The position numbers and the translations under genes were made by a program. The notes under the pieces were generated by a model, which was not told the DNA's origin, did no database searches, and worked only from the letters and a program-made list of their open reading frames with translations. Positions 32,858-63,892 of a stretch of 64,000 nucleotides of DNA are shown here, one piece after another. Origin of the DNA: Elusimicrobiales bacterium (GTDB taxonomy: Bacteria; Elusimicrobiota; Elusimicrobia; Elusimicrobiales; UBA9959); NCBI GenBank assembly GCA_024681855.1, contig JAILAB010000007.1, positions 1 to 64,000 of the forward strand, in the 5' to 3' direction. How positions within the stretch are numbered: position 1 is the first letter of the stretch; each line of letters begins with the position of its first letter.

Positions 32858-34198
32858 ATGCGGATAACAGAATTTCTTAAAGGCGGTTATAAAGACAGCG
32901 CAAACATACAAAATATATATAAACTGGAAGGCTTTGTGCCGCTGGGGCAGGCTCTGCCGTTTGGAATGCAGCATGTTCTCGCCATGCTTGTATCAAATAT
33001 TGTGCCGATAATTCTTGTGGCCGGCATGGCAGGGCTTTCACCGTCTTTAAAAGCCATTCTTATTCAGAACTGCATGATAATAGCCGGAATAGGAACTCTT
33101 GTGCAGCTGTACCCGATCTGGAGAGCCGGGTCAGGTTTGCCAATAGTTATGGGTACAAGTTTTACTTTTGTGGCCGTAAACGGGTATATAGCGTCAAAAT
33201 ACGGATACGGTGCGGTTATAGGCGGCGTGATAGCTGGCGGAATTCTGGAAGGTCTGTTAGGCCTGTTTGCAGGATACTGGCTTAAATACATTTCTCCTGT
33301 AGTCGCGGCCTGTGTCGTAACGTCTATCGGCTTATCGCTTCTGCCTGTCGGTGCCGCCAGTTTTGCCGGTGGCCTGGGTTCTGCGGATTTTGCGTCTGCT
33401 AAAAATATGGCGCTTGGCGCTATAACGCTTATGTCCCTGATTTTGATAGATGTTTTTTCCAAAGGATTCATAAAACGCCTTGCCGTGCTTATTTCACTTG
33501 CAATAGGATATATTGCCGCGCTTGCCATGGGAAAGGTTGACTTTTCCGCCCTGCATGGAATATCTGTCCTGTCCCTGCCTCACATAATGCCTGTTATTCC
33601 TGAATTCCGCCTGGATGCTGTTCTGGGAATACTGCTTGTATATCTTGTTTCAGCAGCTGAAACCATAGGCGATACCAGCGCATTATGCAATATGGCCCTT
33701 GACCGCAGGCCTTCGCATAAGGAAGTATCCGGCAGTCTTGTGTGCGACGGATTCTGCAGTTCACTCGCCGGAATTTTTGGCTGTATTTCAATAACGTCAT
33801 ACAGTCAGAATATAGGGCTTGTGGCCATGACAAAGGTAATAAACCGTTTTACAATAGCCACGGGGGCTGCGGTAATGGTTGTCGCCGGGCTTTTCCCGCC
33901 GGTAGGCGCATTGCTGGCAACCCTGCCTGATGCTGTTCTTGGCGGCTGTACGATAATAATGTTCGGACAGATAGTTATTTCAGGCATTTACATGATGAGA
34001 AAATGCGGTTTTACGGAGCGCAATACGCTTATAATCGCTCTTTCGCTTTCTGTAGGCATGGGCTTTACCGGTGTGCAGGGAATGTTCTCAATGCTGCCGG
34101 AAATATGGGCTGACAGCCTGCAGAACAACTGCGTAGCCATAGTGTTTTTAATATCCCTTGCAATGGATATCCTTCTGCCAGGAAAAGAAAAAAATTAG
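32858..34198 (+). CDS. NCS2/NAT family nucleobase (probably purine) permease
   Basis: FGMQHVLAMLVSNIVPI; NAT signature QNIGLVAMTK with Gln at the purine-type position; multi-TM. Confidence 0.9.
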   Translation: MRITEFLKGGYKDSANIQNIYKLEGFVPLGQALPFGMQHVLAMLVSNIVPIILVAGMAGLSPSLKAILIQNCMIIAGIGTLVQLYPIWRAGSGLPIVMGTSFTFVAVNGYIASKYGYGAVIGGVIAGGILEGLLGLFAGYWLKYISPVVAACVVTSIGLSLLPVGAASFAGGLGSADFASAKNMALGAITLMSLILIDVFSKGFIKRLAVLISLAIGYIAALAMGKVDFSALHGISVLSLPHIMPVIPEFRLDAVLGILLVYLVSAAETIGDTSALCNMALDRRPSHKEVSGSLVCDGFCSSLAGIFGCISITSYSQNIGLVAMTKVINRFTIATGAAVMVVAGLFPPVGALLATLPDAVLGGCTIIMFGQIVISGIYMMRKCGFTERNTLIIALSLSVGMGFTGVQGMFSMLPEIWADSLQNNCVAIVFLISLAMDILLPGKEKN

Positions 34199-46958: not shown

Positions 46959-47678
46959 TTATTCGTATTTTCCGGAATAAAAATCTATTGCGTATTTTAT
47001 GGTTCGGCAGCTTTCAGCAATGCTGGAGGAAAAGCCTAAAGAGGATGGTTTAGAGTCTTTTATCTTCTCAATTACGGCTATTCCTTCTCCTAAGCCGTCA
47101 AGATAGTGGAAAACAGCATTTTGCCCGAACATTTTTTTCCATTTTTTGTTTTTTGGATCTGCGGAATTTGCATTGCCTATTACTATGAAGCCGCCTGGTT
47201 TCAGCACGGAAAATGCCTCGTATGCGGCGCTTTCGCATATACATCGGTTATATGCCGGCAGATCTATTGATGCTAAATCAAATTGCCCGCGTTTTTTCAG
47301 TTCTTTTGGTTTCAGGCCATAGCCTAGAAGCAGTCTGCGGTTGTAAAAATGCGGCCTCACTTTAGCCTGCCTGAACACAAATCGTATTCTGGAACATGAG
47401 GCAGAGACAATGTCCTTGCCGGTCTTGGAATATTTTTCTGAGCTGTCAACGGAATAAAGGAATGCTCCGGTTTTATTCTCAATTTCCCTGGCTATCATCA
47501 GCGAGGAGAACCCGGAGCCGTATTCTAGCACTTTTTTTGCATTAGTTGTTCTGATAAGCGCCGCAAGGAAACAGCAGCCTGCCTGGTCCAATATGCCCTT
47601 GTCTTCAGAAGGATATTCAAAACGGGATACTTTTATTTTGTCTAGCTGTGAAATAGCCTGATCAATCAGATAATTCAT
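46959..47678 (-). CDS. Class I SAM-dependent methyltransferase-like protein
   Basis: AKKVLEYGSGFSSLMIARE, LYSVDSS, FDLASIDLPAYN, LKPGGFIVIGNA; start at MNYLIDQ avoids overlap with the frdB-like gene. Confidence 0.75.
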   Translation of the reverse strand: MNYLIDQAISQLDKIKVSRFEYPSEDKGILDQAGCCFLAALIRTTNAKKVLEYGSGFSSLMIAREIENKTGAFLYSVDSSEKYSKTGKDIVSASCSRIRFVFRQAKVRPHFYNRRLLLGYGLKPKELKKRGQFDLASIDLPAYNRCICESAAYEAFSVLKPGGFIVIGNANSADPKNKKWKKMFGQNAVFHYLDGLGEGIAVIEKIKDSKPSSLGFSSSIAESCRTIKYAIDFYSGKYE

Positions 47679-47788: not shown

Positions 47789-48583
47789 TTATTTCATTCC
47801 GAGCAGCGCTCTTAAATATGCCCTGTGCATTTTTGCTATCAGGTCTTTTTTTATCCCGCGCGGGCAGGCTTTTTCGCATGCTCCATTATTGCAGCATGGT
47901 CCGAAACCCTCTTTTTCTGCGGCCCGCACAAGCGCTATGGCCCTTGAGTTTTTTTCAGGCTCTCCTTGCGGCATGATTGACAGATGAGCAAGTTTAGCCG
48001 CTACAAACAATGCTGCTGAACCGTTCGGGCATGCGGCTATGCATGCGCCGCAGCCAGTGCAGCTGGCTGCGGCCAGAGCTTCTTCGGCAGCCTCCTTAGG
48101 CACATTTATCGCATTAGCTTCAGGAGAACTGCCTAGATTTGCCGATATGAAGCCTCCAGCTTCGCATATCCTGTCTAAGGCCTTGCGGTCAGTTGCCAGA
48201 TCCTTAACTATTGGAAAAGACTTTATTCTCCAAGGCTCAACAGTTATTATGTCGCCAGGATTGAAATTTTTCATCGTAAGGCGGCAGGTTACGGAATGCT
48301 CGCCAGGGCCGTGCGGCTCACCGTTTATTATAAGCCCGCATGTTCCGCAGCTGCCTTCTCGGCAGTTAGCTTCAAACACAACAGGTATTTCTCCTCGTTT
48401 CAGCAGCTTTTCATTCAGTTTTTCCAGCATGTCCAGAAAGGTCATGTCCGCAGTGATTCCATTCACCTGGTATTGCACTATTCTTCCTTGAGTATGCCTG
48501 TTTGTCTGCCGCCATATTCTTAACTGCACGCTAAAAGTTTTTGCTGCTTTTTTAGCCATTTCTTTTTCCTTGCCGGATATCAT
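47789..48583 (-). CDS. Succinate dehydrogenase/fumarate reductase iron-sulfur subunit (FrdB-like, intact clusters)
   Basis: CREGSCGTCGLIINGEPHGP...C (2Fe-2S); CTGCGACIAACPNGSAALF and CCNNGACEKACPRGI motifs. Confidence 0.9.
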   Translation of the reverse strand: MISGKEKEMAKKAAKTFSVQLRIWRQTNRHTQGRIVQYQVNGITADMTFLDMLEKLNEKLLKRGEIPVVFEANCREGSCGTCGLIINGEPHGPGEHSVTCRLTMKNFNPGDIITVEPWRIKSFPIVKDLATDRKALDRICEAGGFISANLGSSPEANAINVPKEAAEEALAAASCTGCGACIAACPNGSAALFVAAKLAHLSIMPQGEPEKNSRAIALVRAAEKEGFGPCCNNGACEKACPRGIKKDLIAKMHRAYLRALLGMK

Positions 48584-50216
48584 TATCCGTGTTTCGTTTC
48601 AGTCTTATGCTTTTTTTATGATGCTCATCTGCCTTTTTGGAATAAGTAAATTTAAGCATTTCCTTTATTGGAATGTCTTCGCCGGCAGCCTGGCGGAACC
48701 AAACGCGCACAAGCGTTCCTTCGCTTTTTGAAGAGCTGGCATTGTCTGGCGCATAATCCATTCTGAAATGAGCGCCGCAGGTTTCATTCCTTAACAGGGC
48801 ATCCTTTATGAGAAGTTCTCCAAATTCCAGGCAGACGGCTATTTTTTCAGCGGTTTCATATGTGATATTGTAATATGTGGTTTCAGGAAGGAGTAAATCC
48901 CTGTAAAATTCCGAACGCAGTCCCCTAATTTCTTTAATTGCTTGCTGTAATCGGTAGCTGTAACGTATGAAGCCGGCTTTGTCACGCATTATAGCGGAAA
49001 ATCTGTGGTGAAATTCTTCAGGAGAAGTCCTGCCGTGTATGGTTAGCAGCTTCTGCTTTCGGTTCTTGGCTTTGCTCATTGCTTTTGTGAAAGCCGCATC
49101 AGTTTCCCTTATTTCAGGCAGCTTTGTTTTAGATAGGTAAGCTCCAATCACAGCCGGCAGTATGAAAAGACCGTCTGAAATCTCTTGAAGAGGGGCATTG
49201 CCAGGCATGCAGTTTGCTCCATGCGTTGAGAAATTTGCTTCTCCGATTGCGAAAAGGCCTGTTATGGTTGTCCTGAGCTGATAATCTACCCATAATCCGC
49301 CAGAGCATCTGTGCGCGGCATTATAATCCTCGGGGACGATTTTCCATTTTGTGGCATTGCCTGGCAAGTCAAGCGAAAAACAGGGATTTGCGAATCCTGC
49401 CCCTGCGCGGTACGCCGCCCATAGCGGTATAATTCCGCCTGAAAGCGGATTAGGCTTTGAATTATAGATGTCTGAATACCCTCCGCAGGCCATTACTACG
49501 GCATCGGCAGGCCAGGCTTCCTCATTCCCGTTTATAAGATTGCGCGTTATTACGCCTCGGGCATGGCCCTGTTCTATTGCTATTTCTACGGTTTCACGGC
49601 GGCTTATTATAGAAGCTTTGCCCCTTTTCTTTTGGCGAAGCAGAGCAGCATGGAAAGCTTGCAGCAGCTGCCGTCCGGTCTGGCCTCTTGCCTGGAAAGA
49701 ACGGGCAGTGTTGCCTCCGGGATATGTTCTTGGCAAGAGCATGCCGCCTTCATCTCGCAAAAATGGGACGCATAGCGCGGAGCATGTGTCCAGCACTCTG
49801 CCGCTAAGCTGTGCCATGCGATATACATCCGCTTCGCGGGAGCGCCTGCTGCCATATTCTATAGTATCCCTGAAAAAGCGCTCATCGCTGTCCCCGTCAT
49901 TTGCGTAATTTCTGGAAGCATTCAGCCCTCCGCGCATATAAGATGTGTTCTCGTGGATTGGTGATTCCACTTTAGTTATCATCTTTACATTATATCCCTG
50001 TTCGGCAAGAGCGGCGGAAGCTGCGCAGGCTGCAAGGCCTCCTCCAATAACTATTATACTTGATTTTTCTTTTTTTTCAGGCGGAAGCTGCGGCAGCCTT
50101 GCGGCAAGATAAGGCCATTTGTCTTTAAGGCTTCCCGGCGGAATTGCCGCATTAAGCATTAAAGGGACTGTGTTTTTTTTCTGTGGCCTGTCATGCCTTG
50201 CGCTTATTTTTTTCAT
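48552..50216 (-). CDS. FrdA/SdhA-like flavoprotein lacking capping domain (degenerate active site)
   Basis: IIVIGGGLAACAASAALAEQGYNV Rossmann motif; GGLNASRNYANDGDS; GGLWVDYQLRTTITGLFAIGEANFSTHGAN; start at MKKISARHD (50216) just after the cytochrome gene. Confidence 0.85.
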   Translation of the reverse strand: MKKISARHDRPQKKNTVPLMLNAAIPPGSLKDKWPYLAARLPQLPPEKKEKSSIIVIGGGLAACAASAALAEQGYNVKMITKVESPIHENTSYMRGGLNASRNYANDGDSDERFFRDTIEYGSRRSREADVYRMAQLSGRVLDTCSALCVPFLRDEGGMLLPRTYPGGNTARSFQARGQTGRQLLQAFHAALLRQKKRGKASIISRRETVEIAIEQGHARGVITRNLINGNEEAWPADAVVMACGGYSDIYNSKPNPLSGGIIPLWAAYRAGAGFANPCFSLDLPGNATKWKIVPEDYNAAHRCSGGLWVDYQLRTTITGLFAIGEANFSTHGANCMPGNAPLQEISDGLFILPAVIGAYLSKTKLPEIRETDAAFTKAMSKAKNRKQKLLTIHGRTSPEEFHHRFSAIMRDKAGFIRYSYRLQQAIKEIRGLRSEFYRDLLLPETTYYNITYETAEKIAVCLEFGELLIKDALLRNETCGAHFRMDYAPDNASSSKSEGTLVRVWFRQAAGEDIPIKEMLKFTYSKKADEHHKKSIRLKRNTDNDIRQGKRNG

Positions 50217-50899
50217 TTTATTATCACCATCGGTTCTTCCTGTATGTTTAGCAGAAGGTCTGTTTCGGTGCAATAATATATGGAAAGCAATGAAACCGAA
50301 AGGCATAAAATCACTAGCCCGCGCCACAGATAGCGTATGCTGGATTTTTCCCTGCTTGTGGAAAAACCCAGGCAATGCAGGGCATCCGGCAGTCCCCTTC
50401 CGAATATGAAGGAAAGAGATAGAAAGCCGGTAAGCCATATAAGCGCAATTCTTTTTGCGCGCAGCAGTTCTATCAGCGTTTGAGCATAATCTGTGCCTTT
50501 TTCAGTAAAATCAAAAGAGCTGAGAAAATATATATAGGCATAAAGGCATGTGCAGAATATTATTTCAGCAAAAGGAAGACAGAAGGAAAGCACTGGGGCC
50601 TGCCCGTTAAATTTTATGTCTGGATTCTGCTGAGAGCTTTTAATGAGATTTTCCAGCTTTACGCTCAGTTCAAGAATTAAGTGAATTGCCATGAGCGCAG
50701 CCGCCAGCCAAGCGGCTGATTTCACGAAATAGCTTTCACAAGCAAACCTTGAGACGGCTGAAAAAGCATCTGGAAAAAAAGGAAGGGCCGCGAAAGAAAG
50801 AATCAATATCACAGCCGATAAAAAAAGATAAAAAGACAAGACGGAAGAAAGAATCTTCCGTCCAAGCATTGTAAACATCAATAATGAAATGCTATTCAT
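50213..50899 (-). CDS. Cytochrome b558-like membrane anchor (SdhC/FrdC family), histidine-poor
   Basis: Five hydrophobic segments, MLGRKILSSV N-terminus, position upstream of frdA/frdB-like genes. Confidence 0.75.
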   Translation of the reverse strand: MNSISLLMFTMLGRKILSSVLSFYLFLSAVILILSFAALPFFPDAFSAVSRFACESYFVKSAAWLAAALMAIHLILELSVKLENLIKSSQQNPDIKFNGQAPVLSFCLPFAEIIFCTCLYAYIYFLSSFDFTEKGTDYAQTLIELLRAKRIALIWLTGFLSLSFIFGRGLPDALHCLGFSTSREKSSIRYLWRGLVILCLSVSLLSIYYCTETDLLLNIQEEPMVIIK

Positions 50900-50905
50900 C
50901 CTATA

Positions 50906-51949
50906 TTAATCATTTGTCATTACTACCGTAGGCGTGAAATCATTGGGTAATGCAGAATTATCCTGCAGGATTGCATCCTGTTCCTGTTTTAAGCTTTCAG
51001 ATGAGGATGCTTTCGCAGCGGATTTGTCTGTATCTTTGTCAGGCTGTTTGGCGGAAGCATTGTTTTCTTTTTCCGCTTGGCTTTGTCTGCCAGAGTCTGC
51101 CGCATTATCTTTTTCCAACTGTTCGGAGGCAGTTATTCCAAAGCTTTCATTTTCTGCATTTGCCGCCGCTTCAGCTTCTGCGGCTTTTTTTGCTGCTTCT
51201 TCAGCTTCTTTTCTTATCTTTGCTGCTTTAGCTTCCTTTTCTGCCTGGATCTTTTTCAGCAGTCCGGGATCACTTTTAATAGCTTTAAGAGCTTTTCTTT
51301 GCTCTTCATAAATTTCCGTTGCCATTCGCCAGAAGATCTGATTAAGTATTTTCTTTTCTCCGCTGGAAGGGGAAAGAAGGGGGTAAAGCGGCGCAAGCGG
51401 CAGAAAGAAATATGTTTTGTTTGTTGCCGCCAGCTCTATATGAGCTGTGCTTGTTGCTGTTTCTATGTCTGCCATAAGCATATATCCGGTAGGCAGCGAG
51501 CGCGGTAATATGAGAATAAAAGGAGTTTCTACAAAAAAGGTGTTGAGCAAGGTTCCATAATCCCAGCGGTTGATTGTTTGAAGATAAAGCTGAAGAGTGT
51601 CTTTTCCTTTGTTTCGGTCATAAAGGCCGGCTTTCTTAAAAATTTTTTTTGCAAGCTCCAATAATTTTTGCTGGTCAGCAGGGTCTGCTGTCTCAGGCTT
51701 GATTTCCTGCTGTTTAAATTCCCCTGTTCCTTCGTCAATTTCTCCTGTGCCTATCTTATCAGTCCCGGAGCGGTAAGGAAAGTTTTCCCATGAGACTTTT
51801 ATCTCTGAATAAACTTTCTTTTCATTATCTGAAACCATGTCAACGGCTATGTCTCTATCCAGTTTTATTTCGCCGGAAGTAAAAGCAGCGCAGGCAGAAA
51901 GAAAAATCATTATGCCTGCGGGTAAGAGTAGGCTTAAAAAATGTTTCAT
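50906..51949 (-). CDS. Lipoprotein with Ala/Glu/Lys-rich C-terminal region
   Basis: MKHFLSLLLPAGIMIFLSAC lipobox; conserved-looking N-terminal domain then AEKEAKAAKIRKEAEEAAKKAAEAEAAA. Confidence 0.7.
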   Translation of the reverse strand: MKHFLSLLLPAGIMIFLSACAAFTSGEIKLDRDIAVDMVSDNEKKVYSEIKVSWENFPYRSGTDKIGTGEIDEGTGEFKQQEIKPETADPADQQKLLELAKKIFKKAGLYDRNKGKDTLQLYLQTINRWDYGTLLNTFFVETPFILILPRSLPTGYMLMADIETATSTAHIELAATNKTYFFLPLAPLYPLLSPSSGEKKILNQIFWRMATEIYEEQRKALKAIKSDPGLLKKIQAEKEAKAAKIRKEAEEAAKKAAEAEAAANAENESFGITASEQLEKDNAADSGRQSQAEKENNASAKQPDKDTDKSAAKASSSESLKQEQDAILQDNSALPNDFTPTVVMTND

Positions 51950-52077
51950 AAAAACAGCATATTCCTTAATAAACGTGCTTATATTATATCTAAATAAAAT
52001 AGGCAGCATTGGCTTTTAAGATATTATAATATAATTAGGCATGTTTTTGTGATTTTCATATTTTTTTGTTTAAAGAA

Positions 52078-57514: not shown

Positions 57515-57875
57515 AATAAAGATTTTACAAAATAAGCATTAAGACTGGAAAAGCATTGTTTTTCATCTTTTTATGACTGCTTCTTTTTTAATAGTAAGAA
57601 TATAGTAAGAATAATGACTCATTTTTTTTGTTTAGATCGCAATCAGTCTTAGCCTGCTTGCGAATACTGTATTATTTAATTTGGACACATAAGGATTTAT
57701 TTTGCATGAAACATAAAAATGTGCAGAAGGCATATTATTCCTGCCTGCCGCAAATTTCATAATCATATAAATTGCGTTAATTCTGGCATTTATTATGGAA
57801 ACAGATAAAAAAAAAGTAAACTATATATAAGAAAACCTGCTCATTATTATGGGCTTAAAAGGAGAAAACTGTATT

Positions 57876-58415
57876 ATGAGTAATAAGTACGCAGGAACAA
57901 AAACGGAAAAAAACCTGGAAGCCGCTTTTGCGGGAGAGTCCCAGGCTAGGAACAAATATACATATTTTGCAAGCAAGGCAAAGAAAGAAGGCTTTGAGCA
58001 GATTGCTACTCTTTTCCTTAAAACAGCAGATAATGAAAAAGAACATGCCAAGCTCTGGTTCAAGGAACTTAATGGCATAGGCGACACATCAGAAAACCTT
58101 AAGACCGCTGCGGAAGGCGAAAATTATGAATGGACCGATATGTACGAAGGTTTTGCCAAAACAGCGGAAGAGGAAGGTTTTAAGGAATTGGCTGCCAAAT
58201 TCCGCCTTGTAGCTGCTATTGAGAAAAAGCATGAGGAGCGCTACCGCGCGCTTTTGAAAAATATAGAAACCGCACAGGTTTTTGAGAAAAGCGAAGTAAA
58301 AGTATGGGAATGCCGCAACTGCGGACATATAGTGGTTGGCACAAAAGCTCCGCAGATCTGCCCTGCCTGCGCGCATCCGCAGAGTTATTTTGAAATTCAT
58401 GCTGAGAATTACTAA
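57876..58415 (+). CDS. Rubrerythrin
   Basis: [52 protein letters not shown] and C-terminal [12 protein letters not shown]...[11 protein letters not shown]. Confidence 0.96.
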
Positions 58416-58918: not shown

Positions 58919-60244
58919 TTAGAATCTTTCCCACATTTTTTTGCACAGCTCAGCTGATTTGGCATATGCTTCATTAACATCAAAGTCCAGTTTCAGCACC
59001 TTGTTCTCCATAAGCACTTTGCCATCGGCTATGGTTGTGTCCGCTATTGCGTCTGACATTCCGAATACCAGATGTCCTGCAAAATTGTTTTCATCAAATG
59101 GGGAGGGGGCAAGGTAATCCATTATGACAATATCTGCCATATAGCCTTCTTTAAGCACGCCGATTCCCTCAAAATACCTGTTGGCAATTTTTGCATTATT
59201 GAAAGCAAGAGCATTGACAGGCTCCATGAAGCCTTGTGAGGGGTCATGTGTTAAATGCTGCATCCACACAGCCATGCGCAGTGAATCTGTCATTCTCACT
59301 GTCATGGCATCTGTTCCCATGCCCAGGAGAATTCCTTTGGCGGCAATTTTAACCATGTCTCCTGTGCCTATGGCATTATTGGCATTGGATTCTGGATTCT
59401 GCACAATAGCTGTATCTGTTTCCTTTACCAGGTCCATTTCATGTTCATTTATATGCACGCAGTGCGCGGCAATGGTCTTGTTCCCTAAAACTCCTGCCTT
59501 GTGGAAGCGTTCTATTACGCGGCAACCGTGCTCCGCCTGGCATTTTTCCACATCTGCGAGGCCTTCGGCAACGTGAACATGGAAGCCAACTCCGGCATCT
59601 TTGGCCATTTCCACTGCTTTGCCAAGTGTTTTGTCGCTTACCGTGAACGAGGCATGAAGGCCGAAAAGAGCCTTTATGCTGTTATTGTTAAGTCTGCTGG
59701 CATATTTCGCAAATTCATAGTTCTCTTTAAGCCCTTCCTCCGCGCGCTGTTCGCCGTCGCGGTCTGATACTTCATAGCACAGGCTGTTGCGCAGTCCTAC
59801 AAGGTTTGAGGCTTTTTCAATCTCATGCATTGAACCCAGTATATGATACGGGCTTGCGTGATGGTCTATCATTGTTGTTGTGCCATGCTTTACAGCCTCT
59901 ATCATGGGAATAAGGGCGCTGTAATAAGTGTCCTCAAGAGTCAGTTTTTTGTCCAGTCTCCACCACAGATTGTCCAAAACCTCAAGGAAATTTGTTGATG
60001 GCTTTGCTTTGCCAAGACCGCGGGAGAATGTGCTGTAATAGTGCATATGGGCGTTTATGAATCCCGGCATTACAACCCTGCCGTGCGCATCTATTACCTT
60101 GTCATATTTGCCGGTAAATTCTGCTTCCGGGGCAATTTTCTTTATTTTGTTGCCCTCAATAAGCAGGGCGTGTCCGCGCAGGACTTTGTTGTTTTCGCCC
60201 AGAGTTACTATTATTCCGTTTTTTATCAGTATTGTGTTCATCAA
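58919..60244 (-). CDS. ssnA: Putative aminohydrolase SsnA (amidohydrolase superfamily)
   Basis: NGIIVTLGENNKVLRGHALLIEG, MPGFINAHMHYYSTFSRGL, TTTMIDHHASPYHILGS, TIAAHCVHI, QNPESNANNAIG, GMGTDAM. Confidence 0.9.
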   Translation of the reverse strand: MMNTILIKNGIIVTLGENNKVLRGHALLIEGNKIKKIAPEAEFTGKYDKVIDAHGRVVMPGFINAHMHYYSTFSRGLGKAKPSTNFLEVLDNLWWRLDKKLTLEDTYYSALIPMIEAVKHGTTTMIDHHASPYHILGSMHEIEKASNLVGLRNSLCYEVSDRDGEQRAEEGLKENYEFAKYASRLNNNSIKALFGLHASFTVSDKTLGKAVEMAKDAGVGFHVHVAEGLADVEKCQAEHGCRVIERFHKAGVLGNKTIAAHCVHINEHEMDLVKETDTAIVQNPESNANNAIGTGDMVKIAAKGILLGMGTDAMTVRMTDSLRMAVWMQHLTHDPSQGFMEPVNALAFNNAKIANRYFEGIGVLKEGYMADIVIMDYLAPSPFDENNFAGHLVFGMSDAIADTTIADGKVLMENKVLKLDFDVNEAYAKSAELCKKMWERF

Positions 60245-61432: not shown

Positions 61433-63892
61433 TTACAGCTTTTCGGGGCAGACGTCCCATTCCTCCTGTGTGCGCCTTCTCATTCTGAGTGCGCCGGAGG
61501 GGCATTTCTTTGTGCAGATTGAGCAGCCTACGCATTTGCTGGCGTCAAAAACCGGCTTTTTGTCCGCATCCAGTTTTACGGCCAGGTAACCGCAGCGCTG
61601 GCAGTTGCCGCAGCTTATGCAAAGGTCTTTGTTAACTTCCGGAATATCCTTTACAGGAGTAAGCTCCATGAAGTCTGTTACCGGCCTGGGCAGAGCGCAG
61701 CCGCGCAGCTCGTCTATGCTCTTGAATCCGCGCTCTTCCATCATGTGGCTGAGACCGGCTTCCAGCTCTTTTATCACTCCGTAGCCGTATTTCATTACCA
61801 CGGTGCAGAACTGCACTGTCTTTACTCCGAGGGCAAGGAAGTTTGCGGCTTCCATATAGTTCATCGGGCCGCCGTTGCCGGAGGTTGGAACTTCAAGGCT
61901 TGCTGCCTTGGAAAGGCTCAGATAGCTTATCGGGGCCACGCCTTCGCCGGACATTCCGGTTACCATGGCTTCGTCCCAGCGGCCTTTGCCTGAAAGTCTT
62001 TCCCTGAAAGCAAGCGACGGGAAGGAATTTGCCAGCGTTATTCCGCCTTTCTTGCTCGGGTATTTTGCAAAAACCTGCTTTATCGCATTCACAACCTGCC
62101 ATATTGAGGTAACTGCTCCGGTAAGTTTGAAGAGTTTCGGAATATCCGGATTGGAAACTTCCATTACCCAGCCTACTATTTTGGCGGAAAGTTCCGGGTC
62201 CTGTGATACTATGTCACCTTTTGTGCCATCTCCGCCCTGCGGGCAGGAAAGCGAGTATTCAACAACTTTTGCCCCGGCCTTTTCCAGCTTCAGGGTATTG
62301 CTCTGCCATACTTTTCTGTCATGCTCGTCATCACCGGTAACTGAACCGCCGGTTGAGGCACCGGTAAGCCTGTCAGGATATTCCTTTACCAGTTTTGCTA
62401 CTTCCGCGCATACGCGGTCAAGCGCATGGCCGGAAACATTGTCCGAATTGCCGTAAGTGTCGTCATTGAATTTTACCATGTACTGCGACGGAATATGTAT
62501 TGGCAGACCGTCGAAGGAGGTTTTCATTATTACACCAGGCCAGCCGGCTTCGTATGCTGCCTTTACCTGCTCATATCCGTCTGAATGTGGGGCTGCGGAA
62601 ATGAGGAAGGGGGAAGACATCTTATAACCGAAGAAATCCGTTTCCAGCGAAACAGGAAGCATATCCTTTCCGGCGAGGGCGCAGGTGTTTTTGCGGTCGT
62701 CCTTTATTTCCGGAGCAGGTTTGCCGGAAAGCCAGTGATGCACTTTGCATGCGGCATTTTTACCGGATGCAACGGCTTCCACAACTGAACCGCCGCTACT
62801 GGCACCGTCTCCGGCGAAGAAAACTCCTTCTGTTTTTTTGTCCTCGATAGCGGGAAGATTCTTTATGGCAAGAATCACAAGGCCAATGTCAGGGCGTTTC
62901 TGTTCAGTTCCTGGCGCGTCTTTTGAGTAGCCGTCAAGGCGTACAAATGTGGCGCCGTCTTCGTAAATGCCTGTAAGGCGGCTTCTGCCATTTATGTTAA
63001 CGCCGGCTTTTATAAGGTCCATGAGCTCATGTTCGGAAAGTTTTATGTCGCCGGCATTCTTGCGGGTGAATATCTCTGCTTTTGCCGCACCATTCTGAAG
63101 CGCTATGAGAGCGCAGTCTGCTGCTACGGCTCCGCCGCCTACAATGGCTACGCCTTTTCCTTTGACATCATATTTTCCCGCATTGCGCAGGTATTCAAGC
63201 CCTTCAATGCCCTTGTCCTCTCCCGGAACATTCAGTTTCAGCTGTGATTCTACTCCTGCGGCTGTGATTACTGCGTCGTAATTCTTTTTATATTCCGCGG
63301 GATCGGTTACTTTTTCTGAAAGATGTATGTTTATGTCTCCGAGTGTTTTGATAAATTCAATTTCACTTTGCAGTGTTGCCTTTGGAAGTCTGCCGCAGGG
63401 AATAAGGTTGCAGGCTCCGCCTGCTTCATCGTATTTTTCAAAAATATCAACCTTATAGCCTTTCTGTGCCAGCATGGCTGCAGCGGCAAGTCCGGCCGGG
63501 CCTGCACCTGCAATGGCTACTTTCTTTCCATTGGATTTTTCAGCCTTGAATGAAGGCAGGCAGCCAAGTTCCTTGGCCTTGTTTATAATGGCAGCCTGAA
63601 CAGCGGGAATATTTATCGGTTTGTCAAAAGTCTTGCGTGAGCAGGCCTTCATGCAGAACCAGTCGGGGCATACAGTTCCGCACACGCCGCCAAAAGGGTT
63701 GTTTGCAAGTATAAGTTTTGCGGCGCGTTTAATGTCGCTCTTCTTCATCTGGCGCACGGCCATCATAAAATCTGCCGGCGAGCATCCGGCGGGGCAGGCT
63801 TCACGGCAGGGTTTCTCCTCGCAGTAAAGACATCTCTCCGCCTCGCTTTTAAGCTGCGCGTCGGTCAGGAAAATATTCTTATTCATTAACAC
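61433..63892 (-). CDS. Fused dihydropyrimidine-dehydrogenase-like oxidoreductase (PreT-like + PreA-like + 2x[4Fe-4S])
   Basis: N-terminal CLYCEEKPCREACPAGC...CGTVCPDWFCMKAC, VAIAGAGPAGLAAAAMLAQKGYKVDIFEK, FMN/TIM-barrel region SLETDFFGYKMSSPFLISAAP, C-terminal CISCGNCQRCG...CVGCSICTKKCP. Confidence 0.88.
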   Translation of the reverse strand: MLMNKNIFLTDAQLKSEAERCLYCEEKPCREACPAGCSPADFMMAVRQMKKSDIKRAAKLILANNPFGGVCGTVCPDWFCMKACSRKTFDKPINIPAVQAAIINKAKELGCLPSFKAEKSNGKKVAIAGAGPAGLAAAAMLAQKGYKVDIFEKYDEAGGACNLIPCGRLPKATLQSEIEFIKTLGDINIHLSEKVTDPAEYKKNYDAVITAAGVESQLKLNVPGEDKGIEGLEYLRNAGKYDVKGKGVAIVGGGAVAADCALIALQNGAAKAEIFTRKNAGDIKLSEHELMDLIKAGVNINGRSRLTGIYEDGATFVRLDGYSKDAPGTEQKRPDIGLVILAIKNLPAIEDKKTEGVFFAGDGASSGGSVVEAVASGKNAACKVHHWLSGKPAPEIKDDRKNTCALAGKDMLPVSLETDFFGYKMSSPFLISAAPHSDGYEQVKAAYEAGWPGVIMKTSFDGLPIHIPSQYMVKFNDDTYGNSDNVSGHALDRVCAEVAKLVKEYPDRLTGASTGGSVTGDDEHDRKVWQSNTLKLEKAGAKVVEYSLSCPQGGDGTKGDIVSQDPELSAKIVGWVMEVSNPDIPKLFKLTGAVTSIWQVVNAIKQVFAKYPSKKGGITLANSFPSLAFRERLSGKGRWDEAMVTGMSGEGVAPISYLSLSKAASLEVPTSGNGGPMNYMEAANFLALGVKTVQFCTVVMKYGYGVIKELEAGLSHMMEERGFKSIDELRGCALPRPVTDFMELTPVKDIPEVNKDLCISCGNCQRCGYLAVKLDADKKPVFDASKCVGCSICTKKCPSGALRMRRRTQEEWDVCPEKL

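Follow-up and report, generated by a model that had tools for sequence, protein, structure and literature searches.

A fumarate-reductase-like operon without the flavoprotein capping domain, conserved in two species of an Elusimicrobiota genus

The frd locus and its counterpart in a second species

The 64-kb stretch of DNA analysed here (referred to below as the window) comes from a MAG of 2.02 Mb in 81 contigs, which is about 90% complete. Its minus strand carries three overlapping genes in the order frdC-frdA-frdB, encoding a complex II-like membrane anchor, flavoprotein and iron-sulfur subunit (Table 1). We take the ATG at 50216, which overlaps the frdC stop codon as ATGA, as the start of frdA, and do not use the mechanical ORF start at 50438; frdB has an alternative ATG at 48559 besides the start at 48583. 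The genes on either side, encoding a methyltransferase-like and a putative lipoprotein-like protein, are at most candidates for a functional tie to the operon.

Table 1. Features of the frd-like locus and other genes of the window mentioned in the text
Feature	Position	Strand	Description	Evidence
frdC-like membrane anchor	50213..50899	-	228 aa	alignment with 37 canonical family FrdC; AF2; Foldseek
frdA-like flavoprotein without capping domain	48552..50216	-	554 aa from ATG 50216	profiles, alignment, Foldseek
FAD Rossmann motif GGGLAA	49971..50057	-	ORF residues 128-156; 23/29 identical between species	alignment
Remodelled covalent-FAD His loop ENTSYMRGGLNAS	49863..49961	-	ORF residues 160-192; 29/33 identical between species; His replaced by N/S	
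Short linker in place of capping domain	49320..49376	-	ORF residues 355-373	alignment
Former His355 loop AAHRCSGGLWVDY	49281..49319	-	sister has Q for H; new Cys378	
Former Arg390 loop HGANCMPGNAPLQE	49167..49259	-	Arg replaced by Cys410; CMPGNAPLQE same in both species	
frdB-like iron-sulfur subunit	47789..48583	-	11/11 cluster Cys	score above NCBIfam PRK07570 cut-off
FrdB residue 231	47891..47893	-	Ser/Thr replaced by Cys in both capless species	
SAM-dependent O-methyltransferase-like gene	46959..47678	-	directly 3' of frdB in both species	synteny marker
Putative lipoprotein-like gene	50906..52009	-	end 6 nt upstream of frdC	synteny marker
Phosphodiesterase-like gene	45629			synteny marker
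Pilin-like gene	45198			synteny marker
Rubrerythrin gene	57849..58415	+	about 7 kb away from frdCAB	
Fused dihydropyrimidine-dehydrogenase-like flavo/Fe-S protein	61433..63892	-	819 aa; 3.4% Cys	
Amidohydrolase; xanthine/uracil permease	58919..60244; 32858..34198	-; +		

MAG RUG12883 (uncultured Elusimicrobium sp., a second species of the genus) has this operon too, deletion in frdA included, and its proteins are 68% (FrdA, aligned part), 77% (FrdB) and 62% (FrdC) identical to those of the window. This genome was recovered by a scan of GTDB r220 contigs, in which the other full-length FrdA proteins recovered aligned as canonical, and the architecture occurs in 2/341 genomes of the phylum (E <= 1e-92). 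We found no capless FrdA match in viral contigs; the best plasmid matches fall into two aligned segments, like canonical proteins. Since the deletion recurs in a MAG that was assembled separately and belongs to another species, an assembly or frameshift artefact is excluded. An assembly deletion was one possible refutation named in the preliminary description; another, decay in a single strain, is likewise contradicted by the second species. The second canonical frdA that it had suggested looking for was found in neither genome, nor was a canonical frdB elsewhere.

In relatives in the family, canonical frdCAB has in its neighbourhood homologues of the genes that flank the operon in the window (synteny markers in Table 1), and in several of them a class I fumarase gene lies downstream of frdB, often on the same contig. 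The methyltransferase-like gene occupies the spot held by this fumarase. As the flanking synteny matches, the simplest explanation is that the capless genes arose at this locus by modification of the fumarate reductase native to the family. The FrdB phylogeny is consistent with descent inside the family, with modest backbone support, and the long capless branch is not placed in the FrdA phylogeny (support 0.05). By fold, gene order and descent the encoded complex belongs to the complex II superfamily.

Some other genes in this part of the genome deserve mention. A rubrerythrin gene lies on the opposite strand of the window, and the dihydropyrimidine-dehydrogenase-like protein, amidohydrolase and permease of Table 1 are possible purine/pyrimidine fermentation genes. 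The sister species and at least one relative have, close to frd, a gene for LuxC acyl-CoA reductase fused to an AMP-binding (LuxE-like) protein (L041:2561-4846 and L103:1-2105, both minus strand); such a gene was not seen at the equivalent position of the window.

Altered flavoprotein and anchor, intact iron-sulfur subunit

We aligned FrdA from the window and the sister species with 62 canonical FrdA sequences from their own family and from other phyla. The interval from the P[CS][FWY] motif to GGLW is 24 aa long in both species; in 59 canonical FrdA it measures 141-169 aa, with a median of 141. The approximately 117 missing residues correspond to residues 233-351 of E. coli FrdA, that is, to its whole capping domain (PMC5773532). 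No capping domain aligns to the ORF, which bears out the proposal of the preliminary description that this domain and the HPT motif have been deleted. We also considered that the cap might be supplied in trans from nearby and rejected this, as tblastn searches of the 64-kb window and of the sister contig gave no match to a cap homologue (positive control, E = 6e-83).

The substrate residues of E. coli FrdA belong partly to the flavin domain (His232, His355 and Arg390) and partly to the cap (Thr244 and Arg287; PMC5773532). In both species the equivalent of His232 is deleted, those of Thr244 and Arg287 are gone with the cap, and that of Arg390 is Cys; the His355 equivalent is retained in the window copy only, the sister having Gln. 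The His that binds FAD covalently (E. coli His44), found in 62/62 canonical sequences, is Asn in the window and Ser in the sister. Losses of the FAD-linking His and of the dicarboxylate-binding Arg had been read from the motifs ENTSYMRGG (for HSxxAQGG) and GANCMPG (for GANRLGA), which, like all motifs quoted there, are present in the sequence, and both losses extend to the second species. Both capless species retain 83 of the 176 FrdA columns that do not vary among the canonical sequences, and 37 have been deleted.

The remaining protein is still recognizable as a complex II flavoprotein. Pfam finds FAD_binding_2 in two separate pieces and Succ_DH_flav_C, and the Foldseek matches are complex II flavoproteins. 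The best profile is PRK07573 (FrdA/SdhA), although scores fall below the curated cut-offs for this model (448 bits vs 866) and for sdhA_Bsu (366 vs 541), as well as for the nadB model (137.7 vs 452.75). The AF2 model of FrdA has low confidence (pLDDT 38-55) in the region of the former active site.

FrdB scores 352.8 bits (PRK07570 cut-off, 243), and all 11 Cys at the ligand positions of the three Fe-S clusters are retained in both species, in agreement with what had been described for the window copy. An additional Cys is shared by the two capless species at FrdB residue 231, forming a CC motif with a neighbouring cluster-ligand Cys, and it might affect the third cluster.

FrdC has diverged beyond recognition by the Pfam Sdh_cyt model. 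Its AF2 model keeps the transmembrane bundle (helices 11-37, 57-91, 103-128, 149-176 and 182-211), and its best Foldseek match is SdhC of Chloroflexus (9lay_C), followed by W. succinogenes FrdC. Compared with 37 canonical FrdC of the family, six of the seven invariant or near-invariant His are lost. By helix and spacing from the diheme anchors of B. subtilis and W. succinogenes, we take four positions to be the heme ligands. Three of these four are lost in both species: the equivalents of His32, His122 and His165/168 are replaced (window/sister L/F, Y/Y, and I/Q and R/R), and His73 alone is left. Bis-His ligation is general for complex II hemes (PMC7447783) and, with three of the four ligand positions gone, it is impossible for either heme of this FrdC.

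Selection on the operon and its metabolic setting

In a pairwise codon model, a test of selection on orthologs of the kind proposed in the preliminary description, omega = 1 was rejected for all three subunits, with likelihood-ratio statistics of 326 (frdA), 243 (frdB) and 147 (frdC), which lie within the range of the neighbouring genes. Purifying selection on frdCAB is thus strong and clear, with the reservation that point estimates of omega are unreliable because dS is saturated. At family-invariant columns of FrdA that are changed in both species, the new residue is the same in 32/45 cases (71%), compared with 46% identity at family-variable columns. The flavin-facing segments of FrdA are 76-100% identical between the two species, versus 68% for the protein overall, 48-63% for the remainder and 56% for the residual linker. 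Both observations are the opposite of what is expected for an old active site that is drifting. The stem leading to the capless proteins is long relative to the tips in phylogenies of FrdA (1.09 vs 0.30-0.38) and FrdB (0.83 vs 0.14-0.16), which shows a burst of change followed by constraint.

In order to describe the metabolic setting, we compared the two genomes of the capless genus with the other 57 genomes of the family by family searches. Class I fumarase was found in neither capless genome and in 52/57 of the others; a UbiA prenyltransferase above cut-off in neither and in 54/57; and the 49-kDa subunit of complex I/Ech-type enzymes in neither and in 55/57. Rnf/Nqr was also found in neither, and is rare anyway (5/57 relatives). 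In two of three relatives inspected the UbiA gene adjoins a polyprenyl synthase. The window MAG is 90% and RUG12883 86% complete, so a single gene would be missing from both by chance with a probability near 1-2%, and the joint pattern of absence is unlikely to be a sampling effect; the absences are probably real. The missing downstream fumarase, the absent UbiA and complex I-type genes, and the loss of heme ligands in FrdC all go beyond the preliminary description.

Other absences are features of the family. MenD was not found above cut-off in any of the 59 family genomes, and MqnA/MqnD were found in 9/59; nonetheless most family genomes encode a UbiA-type prenyltransferase and canonical fumarate reductase. 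Since most of the family is without both routes, their absence says nothing about the capless genus. Similarly, HemB is not detectable in 44/59 family genomes, although canonical FrdC retains four heme-ligand His, which suggests heme uptake or an unrecognised route. Most relatives with diheme-type FrdC also lack HemB, and its absence is therefore not informative for the capless genus.

Possible functions of the capless complex

With no proton donor, no closing domain and few of the substrate contacts left, ordinary fumarate reduction or succinate oxidation is strongly disfavoured, and the loss of this function was probably sustained by the ancestor of the capless Elusimicrobiota genus. Judging from sequence comparison, we think it rather probable that complex II has been exapted here as a membrane-anchored flavin/Fe-S electron-transfer module which performs no chemistry on dicarboxylates, heme or self-made quinone. 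The preliminary description had proposed a repurposed electron-transfer complex rather than plain decay; repurposing is well supported by the second species, by purifying selection and by the lack of any other frdA or frdB, and we infer the electron-transfer part because the Fe-S subunit is intact and the segments facing the flavin are conserved. FAD would still be bound by capless FrdA, non-covalently; in complex II, non-covalent FAD has a flavin potential lower by approximately 90-150 mV (PMC9557727). Loss of the cap would expose the flavin to a different partner, or to a larger one. Electrons would then move between the exposed flavin and the Fe-S clusters of FrdB, and would be given to, or taken from, a membrane-side partner that is neither heme nor self-made quinone, so that the complex may be pictured as an electron wire of flavin and Fe-S clusters, tethered to the membrane, whose input and output are both new. 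Against this it can be said that FrdC, having drifted past Pfam Sdh_cyt, would also suit a pure anchor, that a conserved protein may be a non-redox scaffold, that no quinone or heme is at hand to account for the membrane-side partner, and that the proposal draws on two genomes, 90% and 86% complete.

A non-redox exaptation, in which the complex would be a structural membrane scaffold or binding platform with dispensable cofactors, agrees with the loss of the substrate, covalent-flavin and heme sites, with the divergence of FrdC and with the lack of an apparent quinone partner. A scaffold needs neither the 11 Cys of FrdB strictly kept in both species nor the extra conservation of flavin-facing loops in FrdA, however, and we regard this explanation as unlikely. 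The intact chain of Fe-S ligands would also suit a redox enzyme working on scavenged quinone, in which the exposed flavin takes electrons from a new soluble donor and the [3Fe-4S] cluster passes them directly to a community quinone. Heme is dispensable in some complex II enzymes, for example E. coli QFR with its heme-less FrdCD, and a gut community could conceivably supply menaquinone. Nevertheless, none of the tested classes of quinone-reactive enzymes was found in either genome and the quinone site of FrdC shows no sign of conservation, which makes such an enzyme distinctly improbable.

The operon could also be a slowly decaying relic of fumarate respiration, whose loss accompanies that of fumarase, quinone synthesis and complex I, and the disappearance of the surrounding pathway, the number of catalytic residues lost and the long stem branch fit this account. 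It is very improbable, and already strongly disfavoured, given that three overlapping frames are open in two species with saturated synonymous sites, that the likelihood-ratio statistics against omega = 1 are 147-326, that most changed sites carry one new residue common to both species, and that the tips are short compared with the stem. An activity of relaxed specificity on a dicarboxylate or similar small acid would be in keeping with the homology to FrdA and with the His355 kept in the window copy, but the equivalents of Arg390, His232, Thr244 and Arg287 are gone in both species, the sister has Gln for His355 and fumarase is missing as well; we give such an activity hardly any credence.

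A more specific idea is that the old dicarboxylate site has become a redox-active flavin-thiol centre, in which Cys378, Cys410 and Cys318 would stand beside the FAD and the Cys of the anchor would form a membrane thiol relay; if so, the complex would be a complex II-derived thiol/disulfide oxidoreductase. Cys410 replaces Arg390, Cys378 replaces a Thr/Ser/Ala beside His355, and Cys318 replaces the Thr of the flavin-side TGG motif, while FrdC has five new Cys (54, 116, 118, 199 and 210) compared with almost none in canonical FrdC. The three FrdA Cys and the new FrdC Cys are present in both species and absent at those positions in aligned canonical relatives. Shared Cys are not clearly enriched over the expectation from Cys content (1.47% in the window), and we dropped general Cys gain as evidence for a thiol centre. 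We consider the idea improbable.

Complex II flavoproteins are usually viewed as an enzyme of two domains, one of which, the mobile cap, is required both for catalysis and for covalent flavin attachment, and we found no published account of a capless conserved complex II among open-licence papers. In a conserved three-subunit complex II that has no cap, substrate residues or heme ligands, and whose lineage has apparently lost fumarase, quinone prenylation and complex I, nature would have set the electron wire apart from the enzyme. Such a case makes it possible to ask by experiment which selection maintains complex II once fumarate and quinone are no longer its substrates, and may offer a small natural flavin/Fe-S/membrane module.

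Among known systems, NadB and the soluble flavocytochrome-type fumarate reductases belong to the same flavoprotein superfamily as capless FrdA and retain the capping domain and the substrate residues. They have no dedicated FrdB/FrdC pair, unlike capless FrdA, and their FAD is non-covalent (PMC9557727). Type-B diheme SQR/QFR (complex II; nearest solved structure 9lay, Chloroflexus aurantiacus) shares with the capless complex the gene order C-A-B, FAD_binding_2 and Succ_DH_flav_C, a full Fe-S subunit and the multi-helix anchor fold. In contrast to it, the capless complex is without the cap, the covalent-FAD His, His232/Thr244/Arg287/Arg390 and the bis-His heme pairs, and its host is without apparent quinone synthesis. 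Canonical frdCAB(-fumarase) of the family occupies the corresponding locus, with corresponding flanking genes, and keeps the cap, the catalytic residues, the four heme-ligand His and, mostly, the fumarase, all of which the capless genus has lost.
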